This document shows, in pieces, positions 8,774 to 29,616 of a stretch of 64,000 nt of DNA (its first letter is position 1; every line of letters begins with the position of its first letter). This DNA is from Actinomycetota bacterium (GTDB lineage: Bacteria > Actinomycetota > Thermoleophilia > Solirubrobacterales > Solirubrobacteraceae), in the NCBI GenBank assembly GCA_018268595.1, contig JAFDWH010000021.1, positions 1 to 64,000 of the forward strand, in the 5' to 3' direction. Both the position numbers and the translations under genes were made by a program. Below the pieces are notes generated by a model. The model had not been told where the DNA came from and searched no databases. It worked only from the letters and a program-made list of their open reading frames with translations.

Positions 8774-9741
8774 TGGGGCGCGTGCTGATCGCGGGGACCG
8801 CCTCGCTGCTGATCTGCATCTTCCTGAGCCCGAAGTTCATCGCGTTCATCCGCGAGCGCGAGTTCGGCCAGCACATCCGCGAGGAGGGGCCGGAAGGGCA
8901 CCACACGAAGGCGGGCACGCCGACGATGGGCGGGCTGATCATCTTCGCCGCCGTCGCGATCCCGTTCCTGATCCTGACGAACTACGACTGGCAGGCGGTC
9001 GGGGTCTTCGGCACCGCGCTCGCGTGCGCGCTGATCGGCTTCGCCGACGACTACACGAAGATCGTGCGGCGCCGCTCGCTCGGGCTGCGCGGGCGCACGA
9101 AGCTGCTGGCGACGATCGCGATCTCGATCGGCCTGTGGCTGGCGGCGACGAGAGGCGCCGGGCTGCAGGAGACGGTGCGGCTGCGGATCGTCGACGCGCA
9201 GATCGACCTCGGCGTCTTCTATCCCGTCTTCATCTACCTCGTCGTCGCCGGCACGACCTCGGGCGTGAACCTGACCGACGGGCTCGACGGGCTCGCCGCC
9301 GGCTGCGCGGCGATCGTGCTGCTCGCCTACATCGGCATCACGTACATCACGACCGGCCAGACCGAGCTGACGCTGCTGGCCGGCTGCCTGATCGGGGCGT
9401 GCGTCGGCTTCCTGTGGTTCAACTCGTTCCCCGCGAACATCTTCATGGGCGACACCGGCTCGCTCGGCATCGGCGGCGCGATCGCCGGGCTGGCGGTGAT
9501 GACGAAGACGGAGGTGCTGCTGCTGATCCTCGGCGGGATCTTCGTGCTGGAGACGCTGTCGGTCGCGATCCAGGTGCTCGCGTTCCAGACGTTCCGCAGA
9601 CGCGTCTTCCTGATGGCGCCGATCCACCACCACTTCGAGATGCGCGGCTGGTCGGAGACGAAGATCATCCTGCGCTTCTGGATCATCGCGTCGGTCTGCG
9701 CGGCGGTCGGCTTCACGATCTACCAGCAGTCGATCCGGTGA
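8773..9741 (+). CDS. mraY: phospho-MurNAc-pentapeptide translocase MraY
   Basis: 322-residue polytopic membrane enzyme (about ten helices) that transfers phospho-MurNAc-pentapeptide to undecaprenyl phosphate, making lipid I. Family motifs: FADDYTK (the Asp-Asp pair), NLTDGLDGLA, FMGDTGS and the conserved IHHHFE loop near the C-terminus. Starts in the TGATG overlap with murF and ends in a GTGA overlap with murD. Confidence 0.96.
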   Translation: MGRVLIAGTASLLICIFLSPKFIAFIREREFGQHIREEGPEGHHTKAGTPTMGGLIIFAAVAIPFLILTNYDWQAVGVFGTALACALIGFADDYTKIVRRRSLGLRGRTKLLATIAISIGLWLAATRGAGLQETVRLRIVDAQIDLGVFYPVFIYLVVAGTTSGVNLTDGLDGLAAGCAAIVLLAYIGITYITTGQTELTLLAGCLIGACVGFLWFNSFPANIFMGDTGSLGIGGAIAGLAVMTKTEVLLLILGGIFVLETLSVAIQVLAFQTFRRRVFLMAPIHHHFEMRGWSETKIILRFWIIASVCAAVGFTIYQQSIR

Positions 9742-11039
9742 GGCCCCCGCTTCCCGGCGGCCCGTACCTCGTCGTCGGGCTCGCCCGCTCCGGCGTCGCG
9801 GCGGCGCTGACGCTGCGCGCGCGCGGCGAGCAGGTGGTCGGCGTGGACGCCGGCGCGCCGGACGCCGGCAGGCTTGCGCACGCCGGCGTCGAAGTGCGCC
9901 TGGATGACTCCGGCGTCCAGCTGCTCGATCGCGTCGCGACCGTCGTCAAGAGTCCTGGCGTCCCGCACACGGCGGCGGTCGTGGAGGCGGCGCGTGCGCG
10001 CGGGCTCGCGCTGGTGGGAGAGCTGGAGCTGGCCTGGCGTCTCCTTCCCAACGACTTCATCGCCGTGACGGGCACGAACGGCAAGACGACGACGACCGAG
10101 TGGATCGGTCACGTCCACCGCGAGGCCGGTCATCCCGTCGCTGTCGCCGGCAACGTGGGAACCCCGGTCTCGTCGCTCGTCGGCGCGCTCGACCCGGCCG
10201 CGACGGTCGTGTGCGAGGCGTCGTCGTTCCAGCTCGAGGACACGACCGCGTTCGCGCCCGACGCGGCCGTGCTGCTCAACATCACGCCCGACCATCTCGA
10301 CCGGCACGGCTCGCTCGTGGCGTACCGCGAGGCGAAGCTGAACGCGTTCCGGCGCCAGGGGCCGGACGCGGTCGCGGTCGCGCCGGCCGACCTCGCGGTG
10401 CCGGGCGGCGCGCGGCGCGTCGCGTTCGGCGCCGGCGGCGAGCTGGGCGTCGAGGCGGAGGCGCTGACGTGGCAGGGCGAGCCGTTCGTCGCGGCCGAAG
10501 AGATCCCGCTGCCAGGCGCGCACAACCTCCAGAACGCCGCCGCCACCGCGGCCGTCTGCCTCGCGCGCGGGATCGACCCGGACGCGGTGCGCGCCGGGCT
10601 GCGCTCGTTCCGCGGCGTCGCGCACCGGCTCGAGCCGGTCGCCGAGCTTGACGGCGTCGCGTACGTGAACGACTCGAAGGCGACGAACGTCGACTCGACG
10701 CTCGTCGCGCTGCGCGCGCTCGGCGAGCGCCGCGTGCACCTGATCCTCGGCGGGCGCACGAAGGCGCAGGACTTCGCGCCGCTCGCGCCGCTCGTCGCCG
10801 AGCGCTGCGCCTCCGTGCACCTGATCGGCGAGGGTGCGGACGAGATCGCCGCCGCGCTCGCCGGCGCGGGCGTCCCGCTGCACCACGACGGCGACCTCGA
10901 GCGCGCGGTCCACGCCGCCCGCGCCGCGGCCCGGCCCGGCGAGGTCGTGCTGCTCTCGCCGGCCTGCGCGAGCTTCGACCAGTACTCCGACTTCGAGGCG
11001 CGCGGCGACTGCTTCCGCGCGCTCGTGGAGGCGCTGTGA
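9738..11039 (+). CDS. murD: UDP-MurNAc-L-Ala:D-Glu ligase MurD
   Basis: 433 residues. Rossmann-like N-terminal domain (YLVVGLARSGVA), P-loop GTNGKTTTT (Lys116), NITPDHLDRHGS, and the C-terminal VNDSKATN and SPACASFDQYSDFEARG motifs are all MurD-specific. GTG 9738 overlaps the mraY stop (GTGA), which fits both the family N-terminus and the coupling style here. Its end overlaps ftsW by 4 nt. Confidence 0.95.
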   Translation: MRPPLPGGPYLVVGLARSGVAAALTLRARGEQVVGVDAGAPDAGRLAHAGVEVRLDDSGVQLLDRVATVVKSPGVPHTAAVVEAARARGLALVGELELAWRLLPNDFIAVTGTNGKTTTTEWIGHVHREAGHPVAVAGNVGTPVSSLVGALDPAATVVCEASSFQLEDTTAFAPDAAVLLNITPDHLDRHGSLVAYREAKLNAFRRQGPDAVAVAPADLAVPGGARRVAFGAGGELGVEAEALTWQGEPFVAAEEIPLPGAHNLQNAAATAAVCLARGIDPDAVRAGLRSFRGVAHRLEPVAELDGVAYVNDSKATNVDSTLVALRALGERRVHLILGGRTKAQDFAPLAPLVAERCASVHLIGEGADEIAAALAGAGVPLHHDGDLERAVHAARAAARPGEVVLLSPACASFDQYSDFEARGDCFRALVEAL

Positions 11040-22823: not shown

Positions 22824-23222
22824 TCAGCCGGTCGCGTCCAGCTCGGCGGCGAGCGCGGCGACGCGCCGGGCGATCTCGTCACGGGTCGCGCGCACGTCGG
22901 CGAGCGGGCGACCTTTCGGATCGGGGAGCTGCCAGTCGACGTAGCGCTTGCCGGGCACGTACGGGCAGGCGTCGCCGCAGCCCATCGTGACGACCACGTC
23001 GGCCTGCTCGGCCAGCGCGCGCGTGAGGCGCTGTGGCCGGCGGTCGGAGAGGTCGATCCCCAGCTCGCGCATGACCTCCACGACCTCTGCGTGGACGCGC
23101 TCGGCCGGCGTCGTGCCGGCGCTGAGCGCTCGGTGGCGGCCGCCGGCGGCCTGCTCGAACAGGGCGGCGCTCATCTGCGAGCGGCCGGCGTTGTGGAGAC
23201 AGACGAACAGCGCGGTCGCCAT
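22824..23222 (-). CDS. arsC: arsenate reductase, low-MW phosphatase type
   Basis: 132 residues. The phosphatase loop is close to the N-terminus: [15 protein letters not shown] matches C-x5-[14 protein letters not shown] and the [24 protein letters not shown] segment with further cysteines are typical of thioredoxin/mycothiol-linked arsenate reductases. It reduces arsenate to arsenite. Shares one base with the aquaporin stop (TGATG) as the last gene of arsR-aqp-arsC. Confidence 0.9.
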
Positions 23223-23926
23223 CAGCGCGTCTGCGCCACATTGGCCGGGCGCGGATGCTCGCCGCGCACGAGCTGGTACGCGAGCGCGCCGAGCGCGGCG
23301 CCGACGACGGGGCCGACGACGTAGATCCAGAAGTCGTGCCACGTGCCTGAGGCGAGCGCCGGCCCGAACGAGCGCGCCGGGTTCATCGACGCGCCGGTGA
23401 TCGGGCCGCCGAACAGCGCGTCGAGCCCGACCGTCCCGCCGATCGCGAGCGCAGCGGCGGCGCCGACCGCGCGCGTGTCGGTCGCGACCGCGACGATCAC
23501 GAACATCAGGAACGCCGACAGCACGATCTCGTAGAGCAGCGCCGTGCCCGTGCCGACGCTCGGGAGCGTCGCGCCCAAGTGCGCCGGCTTTGCGCTCCAG
23601 GCGGCGAGCAGCACGAACGCGGCGGCGGTCGCGCCGGCGAGCTGCGCGGCGACGTATGCGAGCGCGTCGCGCAGCGGGAAGTGCCGCGTCAGCGTGAACG
23701 CGAGGGTGACGGCAGGATTGATGTGCGCGCCCGACAGGTGCCCGGTCGCATAGATCATCGCCATGATCACCAGGCCAAAGGTCGCGCTGACGCCGACGCC
23801 GCCGAGCGCTCCGGCGTGGACCGTGTTCGCGACGATCGCACCGCAGCCGGCGAACACCAGCGCGAACGCCGCCAGCCCTTCGGCGAGCGCCCGGCGCGCG
23901 AGCCCGGGACGCTCCCTCACAGCCAT
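23222..23926 (-). CDS. MIP-family aquaporin, probable arsenite channel (AqpS-like)
   Basis: 234 residues with six membrane helices and the two half-helix motifs GAHINPAVT and GASMNPARS (both NPA intact). ATG 23926 gives MAVRERPGLARRALAEGL and overlaps the end of the ArsR gene by 10 nt. Lying between an ArsR sensor and arsenate reductase, it occupies the place of an arsenite pump. Such arrangements let arsenite formed by ArsC flow out by gradient, as known for rhizobial AqpS. Role inferred from context. Confidence 0.85.
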   Translation of the reverse strand: MAVRERPGLARRALAEGLAAFALVFAGCGAIVANTVHAGALGGVGVSATFGLVIMAMIYATGHLSGAHINPAVTLAFTLTRHFPLRDALAYVAAQLAGATAAAFVLLAAWSAKPAHLGATLPSVGTGTALLYEIVLSAFLMFVIVAVATDTRAVGAAAALAIGGTVGLDALFGGPITGASMNPARSFGPALASGTWHDFWIYVVGPVVGAALGALAYQLVRGEHPRPANVAQTR

Positions 23927-24267
23927 CTGCGCAGCTCCTCCAACGCGTCGGGCAGGACGTAGTAGTAGGCCCACAGGCCGCGCCGCTCGACGCCGAGGAT
24001 GCCGGCCTCGCGCAGCTTGCGCAGGTGGTGCGAGAGCGTCGGCTGAGAGATGTCGAACAGCGGCTCCAGCTCGCACACGCAGACCTCGCCCGCATGCCCG
24101 CGCAACACGTCCACGAGCTGCACCCGGACCGGATCGGCGAGCGCCTTCGCCACCGCCGCGATCCGCTCGGCCCCGGCCGCATCGACCTCGGGCAGGACGA
24201 CCGGCTCGCAGCAGCGCTCGCCCGCACCGCGCTTCGCCTTCGGCGCGATCGTTATATCGACACTCAT
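23917..24267 (-). CDS. arsR: ArsR arsenite-responsive repressor
   Basis: 116 residues, winged helix. The metal-binding motif VCVCELEPLF in the DNA-binding helix region matches the classical ELCVCDL As(III) site, and an additional Cys-Cys pair sits at residues 19-20. LSHHLRKLREAG is the recognition helix. On the minus strand TAGCGT (24280-24275) ends 7 nt before the ATG; leaderless promoter and autorepression are likely. Heads the arsenic operon. Confidence 0.92.
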   Translation of the reverse strand: MSVDITIAPKAKRGAGERCCEPVVLPEVDAAGAERIAAVAKALADPVRVQLVDVLRGHAGEVCVCELEPLFDISQPTLSHHLRKLREAGILGVERRGLWAYYYVLPDALEELRRWL

Positions 24268-24493: not shown

Positions 24494-24931
24494 TCAGGGG
24501 CTGTCGCGCGTCGCGTCGGCCGGAAGCAGCGTGAAGCTGCCGCCGCCGAGCGGCGTCACAGCGCGAAAATGGCGCTCGTCGAAGCTGAGGATCCGCTTCG
24601 TCTCATACCGATGGGCGAGCACGACGAGCGCACAGTCGACGAGCCCGAGGCTCAGATCGGCGTAGCGCGATTCGAGGTCGGCGACGGTCGCGTAGTCGTC
24701 CCGTTCGAGTGCCGCGACGGTGAAGCGGCCGGCGGCAAGGTCGGAGAGGAACGCGCGTCGAGCGGAGTCGCCGAGTCGTTGTCCGAGCAGGTAGTCGATT
24801 TCGGCGGTTGTCGGCGCGGGGATGACGAGCGATCCCGGCTCGTCCTGGATCGCCGCGAGGATCGCGGCGCGGCGCGGCTCGCCGGCGTCGGCGAGCGCGA
24901 CGAGTGGGGCGGTGTCGATGAGCAGCGTCAA
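24494..24931 (-). CDS. PIN-domain ribonuclease toxin (VapC family)
   Basis: 145 residues. PIN acidic residues are visible: Asp in LLIDTAPLVALAD, Glu in TAEIDYLL, Asp in LVDCALVVLA and Asp in LSFDERHF. VapC toxins are Mg-dependent RNases. The start is TTG, overlapping the antitoxin stop (TTGA), so toxin translation depends on antitoxin translation and is weak. Second gene of the module. Confidence 0.88.
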   Translation of the reverse strand: MTLLIDTAPLVALADAGEPRRAAILAAIQDEPGSLVIPAPTTAEIDYLLGQRLGDSARRAFLSDLAAGRFTVAALERDDYATVADLESRYADLSLGLVDCALVVLAHRYETKRILSFDERHFRAVTPLGGGSFTLLPADATRDSP

Positions 24932-25164
24932 GCGCCGAAGCCGTCGAGCAGCTCGTGCTCGGGGATCTCCGAGATCGGGCGTGCGTCGCTGTCGATGCGA
25001 CGGAAGCCGGCGGCGAGCGCGAAGCTGCGGTCACGGGAAGAGGGCAGCCGATAGGCGGCAATCGCCTCCCGCAGGATCTCGGCCTGCGGTCGACCGGCCT
25101 CGCGCGCCAGCGCGGCAAGGCGCTCGGCCTGCCGGTCATCGAGGTAAACACTCGTCTTGCGCAC
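24928..25164 (-). CDS. ribbon-helix-helix antitoxin (CopG type)
   Basis: 78 residues: N-terminal ribbon-helix-helix (VRKTSVYLDDRQAERLAALAREA) and an acidic toxin-binding C-terminus (ISEIPEHELLDGF). GTG 25164 is chosen over an upstream ATG (25182) because TACAAT (25176-25171, minus) ends 6 nt before the GTG. Pairs with the PIN toxin. Confidence 0.85.
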   Translation of the reverse strand: MRKTSVYLDDRQAERLAALAREAGRPQAEILREAIAAYRLPSSRDRSFALAAGFRRIDSDARPISEIPEHELLDGFGA

Positions 25165-25238
25165 ACCCTCATTGTAGGGCATGACGTAGGGCGCCACCGG
25201 AACCTCGGCGCGAGAACCGGCGTGATGCGGATGGCTGG

Positions 25239-26105
25239 CTACGCCCGCGGCCGCGTCTCGCGCGTGAGCCGCTCGGCCTCGCTCACGGGGTCGCGGGAGA
25301 GGTGCTGTGCGCCGAGCCGCGCGGCGAGCGCGGGCGTGGCTCCGGCCCCCGCGAGCGCGAGCGGCACGTCGTCGGCGACGCTCCCGAGCTCGGCAGAGCA
25401 GGCGGCGAGGCGCTCCGGCGCTGTCGCGCTGAGGACGAACGCGTCGGCGGGCAGCTCGCGGGCGATTCCGGCCGCGGTGGCGATCGGCGTGTCGGCGCCG
25501 AGATAGGTGATCCGCCAGCCGCGCGCGCGCAGCGCGAGGCCGAAGGCGATCAGCGGCAGGTCGTGCAGCTCTCCCGGCACGCACGCCAGCACCGCACGCG
25601 GGCCGGCGCCGCCATCCCACCCTCGTGCGAGGCCGAGCAGTCGCCCGCGCAGCACGTTGGAAGCGAAGTGCTCCTGTGCGATGGACGCCTCGCCGCGCTC
25701 CCAGCGGGAACCCAGCTCGGCGAGGTAGGGGAGGATCAGCTCGGTCAGGACGGCATCGACCGTCAGGCTTGCCAGTGCCCGGTCGACGACGGCGTGCGCC
25801 ATCGCGTCGTCGAAGCGATCGAGCGCCTCGCGCAGGTCTGCCAGTTGCGCCGAGCCGTTCTGCTTGGGCACCGACGGGGCCGGGCCGGCGAGCGCGAGGG
25901 CGGCGGCCTCGGCCGCGGACAGGCCCGAGGCCAGGTGGGACTGCATCGCGCGCAAGCGCAGCAGGTCGGCCTCGGAGTACAGCCGGTAGCCGCCGTTCGA
26001 GCGGCTCGGCTCGAGCAGCGCGTAGCGCCGCTCCCAGGCACGCAGCAGCTCTGGTGCGATCCCCGTGCGCCGACTCAGCTCGCCGATCCGCATGTAGCCC
26101 GCCAT
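25239..26105 (-). CDS. MerR-family B12-binding regulator (CarH/LitR-like photoreceptor)
   Basis: 288 residues: MerR helix-turn-helix (5-75; RIGELSRRTGIAPELLRAWE), a helical cobalamin-capping domain (about 95-160) and a Rossmann B12 domain (170-288). W135-x9-E145-H146 and the lower-ligand ExH (Glu179, His181) fit the CarH motif. Recalled Thermus CarH residues (Trp131, Glu141, His142, His177) map with a constant offset of 4. The residue equivalent to its His132 is Glu136 here. TACACT (26118-26113) ends 7 nt before the ATG. Probably a light- and B12-controlled repressor; divergent from the DUF378-fasciclin operon. Confidence 0.82.
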   Translation of the reverse strand: MAGYMRIGELSRRTGIAPELLRAWERRYALLEPSRSNGGYRLYSEADLLRLRAMQSHLASGLSAAEAAALALAGPAPSVPKQNGSAQLADLREALDRFDDAMAHAVVDRALASLTVDAVLTELILPYLAELGSRWERGEASIAQEHFASNVLRGRLLGLARGWDGGAGPRAVLACVPGELHDLPLIAFGLALRARGWRITYLGADTPIATAAGIARELPADAFVLSATAPERLAACSAELGSVADDVPLALAGAGATPALAARLGAQHLSRDPVSEAERLTRETRPRA

Positions 26106-26112
26106 GGTCAGG

Positions 26113-26166
26113 AGTGTAACAGACCTTAGACAAACACTTGACAGAGATGGGTCAGGTCCTTACCTT
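26113..26166. promoter_or_regulatory. divergent promoter region, B12 regulator / DUF378 operon
   Basis: Plus strand: -35 TTGACA (26138-26143), 17-bp spacer, -10 TACCTT (26161-26166), with a 5' UTR of about 40 nt and a Shine-Dalgarno (GAAAGGG). Minus strand: TACACT (26118-26113), leaderless for the regulator. The AT-richer stretch between holds GTAACAGACC and CAAACACTTGACAG, the likely operator area. A second TCCTTA follows at about 26177. Exact operator not resolved. Confidence 0.6.
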
Positions 26167-26212
26167 GCGTTGCAGATCCTTATACGAACCCTCTACAACG
26201 AAAGGGATCGCA

Positions 26213-26455
26213 ATGCAAAAGCTCACACCTGTCGCCCTCGTCCTCGTGATCGTCGGCGGCCTCAACTGGGGCCTCGTCGCGCTGGCGAAGTTCGACCTCG
26301 TCGCGTGGATCTTCGGCGAGGACTTCGGCCAGACCAACGTCGCCAGCCGGATCGTCTACGGGCTCGTCGGCATTGCCGCCGTCGTGCTCGCCGGCTCGCT
26401 CATCGGCGCCCGCCGCGGCCACCACGCCGCACGCACGACCGCCAACACCGCCTGA
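26213..26455 (+). CDS. DUF378 small membrane protein
   Basis: 80 residues with two membrane helices. The first contains the DUF378 hallmark VIVGGLNWGLVAL; the second is IVYGLVGIAAVVLAG. Short basic C-terminus. The function of the family is unknown. ATG 26213 follows a good Shine-Dalgarno (GAAAGGGATCGCA), in contrast to the leaderless genes around it. 28 nt upstream of a secreted fasciclin gene. Confidence 0.88.
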   Translation: MQKLTPVALVLVIVGGLNWGLVALAKFDLVAWIFGEDFGQTNVASRIVYGLVGIAAVVLAGSLIGARRGHHAARTTANTA

Positions 26456-26483: not shown

Positions 26484-26981
26484 ATGACGAGGACCGTCAT
26501 CGCCCTCGCCGCCGTGGCGGCCGTGATCGCCGGGTTCGTCGTCAGCCCGGCGACGGCCGGCACGACACCCAAGCGCGACATCGTCGAGACAGCGGCCGCA
26601 GCCGGCCAGTTCAAGACGCTGGTGCGGCTCGTCAGAACCGCGGGGCTCGCCAAGACCCTGTCGGGCAAGGGTCCGTACACGGTCTTCGCGCCGACGGACG
26701 CGGCGTTCGCGAAGGTCCCGAAGTCGACCCTCCATGCGTTGCTGCACAACCGCGCGAAGCTCCGCGCCGTGCTGCTCTACCACGTCGTGAGCGGCAAGGT
26801 CACCGCGCGGAACGTCGCGAAGCTGCGTTCGCTGACGACCGTCAACGGCGCCAAGGTGCGGATCCGCGTGAAGGACGGCCGCGTGTACGTCAACAAGGCC
26901 AGGGTCGTCACGCCCGACGTGAAGGCGTCGAACGGCATCATCCACATCATCAACCGCGTTCTGATCCCGCCCGCCCGCTGA
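26484..26981 (+). CDS. secreted fasciclin (FAS1) domain protein
   Basis: 165 residues: signal peptide (1-25, hydrophobic core IALAAVAAVIAGFVV, cleavage likely after ATAG), then one FAS1 domain. FAS1 boxes are visible: YTVFAPTDAAFAKVP and VLLYHVVSGKV, ending NGIIHIINRVLIPP. FAS1 domains mediate adhesion. Strong Shine-Dalgarno GGAAAGGA. Co-transcribed with DUF378 and probably controlled by the divergent B12 regulator. Confidence 0.9.
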   Translation: MTRTVIALAAVAAVIAGFVVSPATAGTTPKRDIVETAAAAGQFKTLVRLVRTAGLAKTLSGKGPYTVFAPTDAAFAKVPKSTLHALLHNRAKLRAVLLYHVVSGKVTARNVAKLRSLTTVNGAKVRIRVKDGRVYVNKARVVTPDVKASNGIIHIINRVLIPPAR

Positions 26982-27066: not shown

Positions 27067-27444
27067 TCAGGGGTTGTGCACGTCTACGAGGTCGGCGATG
27101 ACTCGGAAGTCCTTGACGTCGTGCGTCAGGAGCGGCACGCGATGGGCGTTGGCTGTTGCGGCAATCACGAGATCCACAGCGCGTCGGCGCGGCTGCGCCC
27201 CGCGTGACGCGACCGCTGCCGCCAAGCGTCCCCATTCACGGGCGACCGCGGCATCGAAGGGCAACGGATGGAACGTCGCCTCGACGATCCCGAGGCGCTG
27301 TGCTCGCCGGGCGCGTTCGTCATCGTCTTGTGCGACGAGGACACCGAAGTGGAGCTCGGCCAGTGACGCGGCGCTGATCGCGGTTTCGAGGTCGTCCGGT
27401 CCGTCGTCGGCGATCAGCACCGACGTGTCGAGCAGGGCTCTCAC
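27067..27444 (-). CDS. PIN-domain toxin (VapC family)
   Basis: 125 residues. Acidic PIN residues: Asp in ALLDTSVLIADD, Glu in LAELHFG, Asp in VDLVIAATA and Asp in THDVKDF. GTG 27444 lies 3 nt after the antitoxin stop. Predicted Mg-dependent RNase held inactive by the upstream Phd-type antitoxin. Confidence 0.9.
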   Translation of the reverse strand: MRALLDTSVLIADDGPDDLETAISAASLAELHFGVLVAQDDDERARRAQRLGIVEATFHPLPFDAAVAREWGRLAAAVASRGAQPRRRAVDLVIAATANAHRVPLLTHDVKDFRVIADLVDVHNP

Positions 27445-27447
27445 CGG

Positions 27448-27690
27448 CTAGGCGAACGGGTCGACGAGGGTGCCGGGGAGCCGCTCGAGATCCTGCGCGA
27501 GCGTTTCAGGCGTCGGGGTTGCCCAGATGGCACGCAGCCGTGGGCCGCGGACCCACTGCTGTGGGGCGACTGGGCCCAGGTGGGCGGCCGGTCGGCCGGA
27601 CACTGTGATCGTGAACTCCTCGCCGGCCTCTGCCCGGCGCAGCACCTCGCCGATGTTGTTGCGGAGCTCCTTCTGAGGGATCGTCGGCAT
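27448..27690 (-). CDS. Phd/YefM-type antitoxin
   Basis: 80 residues. N-terminal MPTIPQKELRNNIGEVLRRA and FTITVSGRPAAHLGP match the Phd/YefM fold; the C-terminus wraps the toxin. TACCCT (27702-27697) ends 6 nt before the ATG and lies within a perfect inverted repeat, so the antitoxin probably represses its own leaderless promoter. Confidence 0.9.
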   Translation of the reverse strand: MPTIPQKELRNNIGEVLRRAEAGEEFTITVSGRPAAHLGPVAPQQWVRGPRLRAIWATPTPETLAQDLERLPGTLVDPFA

Positions 27691-28560: not shown

Positions 28561-29616
28561 CTACCGCCGCATCCCGCCGAGCCGATGCTGCGCGCGAAGC
28601 GCAAGGATGACGGGCATGGCCGCGGAGTCGAGCGTCGCCACCACCGGCGGGGCGACCTGTGCGGCGAGGCTTCCGGGCGCGGCGCCGGCGGCGTAGTAGC
28701 CGGCGATGCCCCAGACGATCATCGTGTGGGAGCCGCTGTGACGCAGCAGCTTGGTCGAAGCGATGGAGCGTGTCGCCGCGTTGACGAGCCCGTCGCACAC
28801 GCTGAGGCGGGTGGGGTAGTGCGAGGCGAACGAGAAGTCGCCGCTGAGCGCGTCCTCCTCGTAATCGACGAGGCTGTCGAGCATCGTCGACATCACGCAA
28901 AGGTGGGGCCAGTAGGCGGCGGCGAGCGCGGCGGCGTCGCACCGTGTCGTCACCGGGTCGGCCGCGGCGGCGAGCAGCGCGAGGATCGCAATGCTGGAGT
29001 TGCCGCCGGCCGCGATCTCCCACCAGGAGTAGCCGGCAACTCGGGGTTGCGCGGTGGTCCACTGGCGCAGGTCGTCGGTCGAGCCGAGCGCGGCAGCGGC
29101 GTGGGTGTGGGCGAGGGCCTGGCCGCAGCGCATGGCGGCAATCTTCGCCTCGGGTGCGACGATCGCTGCTGAGGGGAGCTGCCACAGCCGGCCGCGGCAG
29201 GTGGCGACGAGATCGACGAGGTAACCGCCGTCGTCGCCGAGCGTGTCGAGCTGCAGCGCGGAGGCAGGAGTGTCGATCGCGGTCACCAGCGCCATGCCGA
29301 TTTCCAGGCCGCGACGCAGCTCGCCGGCGCAGACGCGCTCGCCGACGGTGTCCACGTAGTCCACGAGCACCTGATAGGCGACGAGCAGCTCGACGGTAGT
29401 GCGGCGTTGGCGCCGCGGTGCGGTCGCCGCCAGCGCGGCGACCGCCTCGGCGTTCCGGCTGTCGACGCGGATCGAGTGCATCGCGTGGTGACGCAGCACG
29501 GGGTCGGGGATCGCTGCGGCGGCTACCGCCCACCTGCGGATCTCGCGACGGGCGCAGGGAACGATCGACACTCCGTAATCGCTGAGTGTTGCCAACGTCT
29601 TGAGCGTGGCGATCAT
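28561..29616 (-). CDS. DUF2600 protein (tetraprenyl-beta-curcumene synthase-like)
   Basis: 351 residues, all-helical. Family features: REIRRWAVAAAAIPDP, AYQVLVDYVDTVGER (Asp-rich D-x-x-D), WWEIAAGGNSSIAILAL and MLDSLVDYEEDA. Bacillus YtpB, the characterised member, cyclises long polyprenyl diphosphates to curcumene-type terpenes. ATG 29616 sits inside a 24-bp perfect palindrome. It begins 48 nt after the permease gene on the same strand, so it may be the last gene of that operon. Substrate here unknown. Confidence 0.82.
   Translation of the reverse strand: MIATLKTLATLSDYGVSIVPCARREIRRWAVAAAAIPDPVLRHHAMHSIRVDSRNAEAVAALAATAPRRQRRTTVELLVAYQVLVDYVDTVGERVCAGELRRGLEIGMALVTAIDTPASALQLDTLGDDGGYLVDLVATCRGRLWQLPSAAIVAPEAKIAAMRCGQALAHTHAAAALGSTDDLRQWTTAQPRVAGYSWWEIAAGGNSSIAILALLAAAADPVTTRCDAAALAAAYWPHLCVMSTMLDSLVDYEEDALSGDFSFASHYPTRLSVCDGLVNAATRSIASTKLLRHSGSHTMIVWGIAGYYAAGAAPGSLAAQVAPPVVATLDSAAMPVILALRAQHRLGGMRR

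Follow-up and report, generated by a model that had tools for sequence, protein, structure and literature searches.

The window analysed here is a 64,000-nucleotide stretch (positions 1 to 64,000, forward strand) of contig JAFDWH010000021.1 from assembly GCA_018268595.1, an Actinomycetota bacterium of the Solirubrobacteraceae (Thermoleophilia). It contains a carH-like gene, predicted to encode a B12-dependent photoreceptor of the CarH/LitR type, which is divergently oriented to a predicted operon of two small genes encoding a DUF378 protein and a fasciclin-domain protein. The features of this locus, with residues compared to those of Thermus CarH (TtCarH), are:

25239..26105, minus strand: carH-like gene, 288 amino acids (aa), with MerR DNA-binding domain, four-helix B12 cap and Rossmann B12-binding domain
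25896..26093, minus strand: MerR winged-helix DNA-binding domain, residues 5-70, with RxWERRY (R22-Y28)
25641..25841, minus strand: B12-binding_2 four-helix bundle, residues 89-155 (Pfam)
25326..25598, minus strand: Rossmann B12-binding domain, residues 170-260
25668..25703, minus strand: Wx9EH motif (W135...E145-H146), of which the TtCarH counterpart caps the adenosyl group
25698..25700, minus strand: Glu136 codon, at the position of TtCarH His132
25563..25565, minus strand: His181 codon, at the position of TtCarH His177; the residue is the predicted lower axial ligand of cobalt
26111..26143, minus strand: operator cluster 1, TGTCAAGTGTT TGTCTAAGGTC TGTTACACTCC on the regulator strand, a tandem array of three 11-bp direct repeats
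26138..26143, plus strand: TTGACA, candidate -35 of the DUF378-fasciclin operon, within operator repeat 1 (read from the sequence)
26161..26166, plus strand: TACCTT, putative -10 with a 17-bp spacer and 3/6 matches to the consensus
26176..26197, minus strand: operator cluster 2, a tandem pair of 11-bp repeats (TGTAGAGGGTT CGTATAAGGAT) that precedes the DUF378 start within the predicted 5' leader
26213..26455, plus strand: gene for an 80-aa DUF378 small membrane protein, predicted to be first in the target operon (PF04070, E 5.5e-21)
26484..26981, plus strand: fasciclin-domain protein, 165 aa, with signal-peptide-like N-terminus, second gene (PF02469, E 1.7e-42)

The regulator matched the Pfam families MerR_1 (E 1e-16), B12-binding_2 (E 2e-13) and B12-binding (E 1.5e-7, 0.4 bit below the curated cut-off), and its MerR domain contains the RxWERRY recognition helix of class I LitR/CarH proteins. 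A phmmer search against solved structures gave Thermus LitR/CarH (3whp, 5c8d) as the best match (E 2e-37, residues 3-270 of the window protein), with an alignment that is free of gaps from the cap Trp through to the lower-ligand His, and the AlphaFold model (mean predicted local distance difference test score 91.7, from an input of 19 sequences) superposed on the TtCarH cobalamin domains with a Z-score of approximately 23 and an rmsd of 2.2 over 195 residues. Superposition of the same model with CtMerR of Chloracidobacterium thermophilum gave a Z-score of 20.7. Model residue n lies on TtCarH residue n-4 at the start of the superposed ranges, the offset is constant over this part of the protein, and the equivalent residues (window protein=TtCarH) are W135=W131, E136=H132, E145=E141, H146=H142 and H181=H177, with the codons checked in the DNA. 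The original prediction had proposed a CarH/LitR-like B12 photoreceptor with a constant offset to Thermus CarH, and both the offset and these residue assignments held in the phmmer alignment and the superposition, where the motif shows no misalignment. The B12 motif D/ExHx2G/Px41SxT/Vx22-27GG is present as E179-x-H181-x2-P184-x41-S226-x-T228-x24-G253, with the final GG reading GAG, and all four published light-response signatures (GxxW, EH, GxxH and GxxxP; PMC11796333) are found in the window protein. Judged on all the defining features accessible to sequence analysis, this is a genuine CarH-type photoreceptor with a predicted light response, and a PduO-type cobalamin adenosyltransferase (E 7e-63) encoded in the genome could make the adenosylcobalamin (AdoCbl) chromophore.

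The operator of TtCarH consists of tandem 11-bp repeats with the consensus nAnnTnnACAn (PMC8156234), and the TGTnnA repeat of the window and of its orthologs matches the reverse complement of this sequence. In cluster 1, which reads GGAGTGTAACA GACCTTAGACA AACACTTGACA on the plus strand (26111-26143), the ACA/TGT core recurs with an 11-bp period in all three repeats, the inner T is found in two and the outer A in one. These repeats overlap the candidate -35 sequence TTGACA, a perfect match to the consensus, and CarH requires this placement over the -35 for repression. We searched for the same pattern upstream of orthologs in the Thermoleophilia, where locus and operator counts refer to 77 ortholog loci and residue counts to 72 intact orthologs. 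A first ortholog set contained, in regulator orientation, 22 TGTnnA pairs at a lag of 11 bp and nine at 22 bp, with at most two at any other lag, while the larger set of 77 loci contained 74 pairs at lag 11, with the other lags averaging 1.35. At 51/77 loci such a pair was present within 130 bp, whereas shuffling gave 0.41 loci and coding DNA, as a control, gave none. The genome itself was searched by pattern and by family, and the site in the window was the only convincing operator copy in the genome-wide pattern searches, which found no operator pattern at the single photolyase gene. A wider regulon in this genome was rejected, as the other pattern hits were few, at about the level of the reversed control and mostly inside open reading frames. 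The conserved 11-bp-repeat operator overlapping the -35 of the DUF378-fasciclin operon, to which binding is predicted, is new here and a stronger result than the identity of residue 136. Cluster 2 lies downstream of the predicted -10 and near the DUF378 start, with comparable second clusters at L009, L040, L043 and L046; looping or a roadblock are conceivable roles.

With regard to the target, Shine-Dalgarno-like sequences precede both genes, which are separated by 28 bp, and the genome has no fasciclin match besides the one in this operon. Control of carotenoid genes is usual for CarH, albeit not defining, whereas the divergent locus in the window contains no carotenoid genes, and a family search found no SQS_PSY (phytoene/squalene synthase) gene across the 98.9% complete assembly, so no known carotenoid route starts in this genome. 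The original prediction of a non-carotenoid, divergent DUF378-fasciclin target is upheld, and strengthened by the conserved operator. A carotenoid regulon was rejected for lack of an SQS_PSY gene, and a role for the fasciclin protein as an AstaP-like carotenoid carrier was considered but not favoured, as no carotenoid pathway was found here. Among relatives, the presence of the SQS_PSY family does not track the CarH ortholog (8/16 carriers vs 26/45 others). Our literature searches found nothing on DUF378 together with fasciclin, or on CarH in Thermoleophilia.

The divergent partner is conserved at a subset of the ortholog loci, being DUF378 at 12, fasciclin at no fewer than 13 and both at six, and the DUF378 partner changes only four times on the tree. 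DUF378 is present in 11/61 genomes searched and stands beside the carH ortholog in four of those 11. Several other neighbours are of types linked to light: a photolyase gene lies 9 bp downstream of the carH ortholog at L082 and L090, each with a divergent fasciclin gene (an arrangement like that of a light-repair operon, linking fasciclin with light), a divergent DUF378-photolyase operon is found at L055, and a photolyase is near the carH ortholog at L010 and L086. In addition, an FAD (flavin adenine dinucleotide) oxidoreductase faces or adjoins the ortholog at L107, L115 and L056, a short-chain dehydrogenase (SDR) does so at L102, L109, L118 and L123, and an extracytoplasmic function (ECF) sigma gene at L051, L107 and L122. 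In Pseudomonas, photolyase, SDR and FAD oxidoreductase genes are under LitR and respond to light by induction (PMC9758184), and singlet oxygen strongly induces the fasciclin protein RSP_1409, a member of the RpoE regulon of Rhodobacter sphaeroides (PMC7074977). Taken together, the light-gene neighbours of the orthologs and the singlet oxygen-induced fasciclin render it plausible that the window operon serves in photoprotection, and the identification of the regulator as a CarH/LitR-like AdoCbl photoreceptor is supported by motif, fold, operator and the neighbourhoods of the orthologs alike.

The residue following the cap Trp differs from that of TtCarH, in which His132 becomes the upper ligand in the light (PMC10442372). 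The Glu136 codon precludes, at this position, a bis-His light state like that of TtCarH. A His after the Trp is common but not required, being found in many, not all, CarH homologues (PMC9304148), and CtMerR (Arg), SasPcob (Gln) and AbDPcob (Tyr) are AdoCbl photoreceptors without it (PMC11796333), so variation at this site was already known. The TtCarH H132A variant retains AdoCbl binding and photolysis and has a water-ligated light state, with reports disagreeing on its disassembly (PMC10442372), while CtMerR goes from tetramer to monomer in the light (PMC11796333). None of the 72 intact orthologs has His in this column, which contains Glu in 29, Ala in 15, Gln in ten, Ser in nine, and other residues including Lys and Gly; it ranks 133/186 in conservation and has changed at least 42 times on the tree. 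Two more distant relatives of the same class (L143 and L156) do carry the His. By comparison, G132, E145, H146, E179, H181, G203 and P207 are invariant in all 72, W135 is Trp in 71, G178 (of GxxH) is kept in 61, and H146 is the sole invariant His in the B12-binding part besides H181. The earlier suggestion that Glu136 alters the photochemistry therefore stands only insofar as the bis-His adduct cannot form: Glu is ordinary in this clade and its column nearly free to vary, hence the Glu itself is no evidence of a special ligand, and the substitution, as read from the alignment, is real but common among relatives and no special adaptation. Trp163 (69/72) and Cys175 (67/72, six residues ahead of the lower-ligand His181) are near-invariant in the clade, and correspond to Ala and Thr in TtCarH.

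We consider it probable that the protein is a class I LitR/CarH-type repressor with AdoCbl as chromophore, which represses the divergent DUF378-fasciclin operon in the dark and releases it in the light. In the dark, an AdoCbl-loaded oligomer (tetramer or dimer) would sit on the tandem 11-bp repeats covering the divergent -35 and keep the operon, and probably carH itself, switched off. Green, blue or ultraviolet light would photolyse the Co-C bond, upon which the adenosyl group would leave, the oligomer fall apart and DUF378-fasciclin, possibly with carH, be expressed. With Glu136, the light state would more likely be His181-Co(III)-water/hydroxide accompanied by a rearrangement of E145 or H146, as reported for CtMerR. 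The domains, the ligand and capping residues, the fold, the conserved operator, its overlap with the promoter and the conserved divergent partner are observed here, while AdoCbl binding, repression, release by light, the light-state chemistry and protection by the target proteins are inferred. The locus is best read as encoding a repressor that depends on AdoCbl, acts in the dark and controls one envelope-stress operon, with a predicted light response, and daylight most likely switches on one operon for two small envelope proteins, not the usual carotenoid genes.

When compared with known systems, the window protein shares with TtCarH/LitR (5C8D, 3WHP) the domain order, Wx9EH, lower His, GxxxP and fold, as well as the 11-bp tandem repeat operator over the -35, whereas it differs in having Glu for His132, Leu for Arg176 and Asp for Gly160, and in its DUF378-fasciclin target in a genome where no phytoene synthase was found. 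CtMerR (8JBS/8JBT) likewise combines MerR and B12 domains and has the AdoCbl photoreceptor signatures without a His after the Trp, but is only 26-27% identical in the structural alignment, has Arg where the window protein has Glu, and has a diverged DNA-binding domain, whereas RxWERRY is kept here. The class II LitR proteins (PplR/PmlR) of Pseudomonas consist of the four-helix bundle only and work with light-oxygen-voltage (LOV) proteins, while the window protein keeps both B12 domains; the likeness is in their light-induced photolyase, SDR and FAD-oxidoreductase genes, which resemble the neighbours in several relatives (PMC9758184). A divergent ECF sigma gene is what three clade members (L051, L107 and L122) have in common with LitR-LitS of Streptomyces, whereas in the window there is no sigma gene and the repressor directly faces structural genes.

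Several observations weigh against light-released repression as proposed. Repeat 3 of cluster 1 keeps TGT without the A of TGTnnA, the strict repeat pattern is missing from 26/77 ortholog loci, and the -10 is weak, which is why TTGACA was missed by a sigma-70 consensus promoter scan that reported no promoter. The dimer salt-bridge Arg R176 of TtCarH is Leu180 and its dimer-dimer Gly160 is Asp164, so on these substitutions oligomerisation may differ from that in TtCarH, with a dimer in place of a tetramer possible, and in one study TtCarH H132A was mostly tetrameric under light (PMC10442372). This last result also bears on a B12-level sensor, in which DUF378-fasciclin is repressed by AdoCbl binding and freed when AdoCbl is lost, not by light: dark sensing of AdoCbl would use the same domains, and an oligomer that lacks the His latch might not come apart in the light. 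We think this unlikely, as photolyase and LitR-type light genes stand beside several orthologs, and AdoCbl is photolabile in this fold whatever follows the Trp (CtMerR, SasPcob and AbDPcob; PMC11796333).

That Glu136 itself ligates cobalt in the light state, as a carboxylate-Co(III) adduct representing new photochemistry under selection, might be suggested by Glu being the commonest residue of its column and adjoining the capping Trp. The variability of that column, which made us reject a selected new ligand as likely, and the finding that orthologs with Ala, Gln or Ser have the same operator and target types, so that function needs no Glu, make this decidedly improbable. It is very improbable that the protein is a repressor of the CarA kind, independent of B12 and relieved through a partner protein: W and/or EH are lost in some clade relatives (L049, L134, L139 and L141), a type of change known from Myxococcus CarA (PMC9304148), but the window protein has the Trp that CarA lost while keeping EH, and it retains every AdoCbl-capping and ligand residue, as do the 72 orthologs. 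The four relatives (L049:7205-8140, L134, L139 and L141) belong to the same clade and lack the Trp, some also the EH, with the lower His kept, and are possible independent CarA-like, B12-independent repressors.

For the light-released CarH-type repressor, a wider interpretation can be offered tentatively: Thermoleophilia may contain a widespread clade of CarH proteins free of the His latch, each a dedicated light switch of one divergent operon (fasciclin, DUF378, PRC-barrel, ECF sigma, photolyase) via the conserved 11-bp-repeat operator, serving carotenoid-independent envelope photoprotection, with a light state unlike that of TtCarH and perhaps exchanging spent cobalamin and resetting. Dozens of the orthologs combine Glu, Ala, Gln or Ser at the position of the latch with an identifiable operator; they form a natural test of the need for the bis-His latch in light-driven disassembly, and supply candidate green-light repressors with a defined operator. 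The locus also points to a light-induced DUF378 and fasciclin operon in a bacterium without a detected phytoene synthase, and suggests a function for these two poorly understood small envelope proteins.

A second CarH in this genome was rejected, since the B12-MerR-like proteins of L067 and L068 are weak matches that have lost the W/EH and His motifs. These MerR proteins (L067:7932-8867 + 9440-10417, and L068:6712-7557) have B12-like C-terminal parts without W/EH and the lower His, and the L067 pair has counterparts in several congeners. Elsewhere in the window, 28561-29616 encodes a protein of the DUF2600 family (PF10776), which includes sesquarterpene cyclases such as YtpB, in this genome without a detected SQS_PSY gene. 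The carH-DUF378-fasciclin locus is flanked on both sides by toxin-antitoxin-like pairs (24494-25182 and 27067-27690; RHH plus PIN, and Phd/YefM plus PIN), and at 22824-24267 there is a row of ArsR, aquaglyceroporin-type MIP and low-molecular-weight phosphatase/arsenate-reductase-like genes, resembling an arsenic operon.
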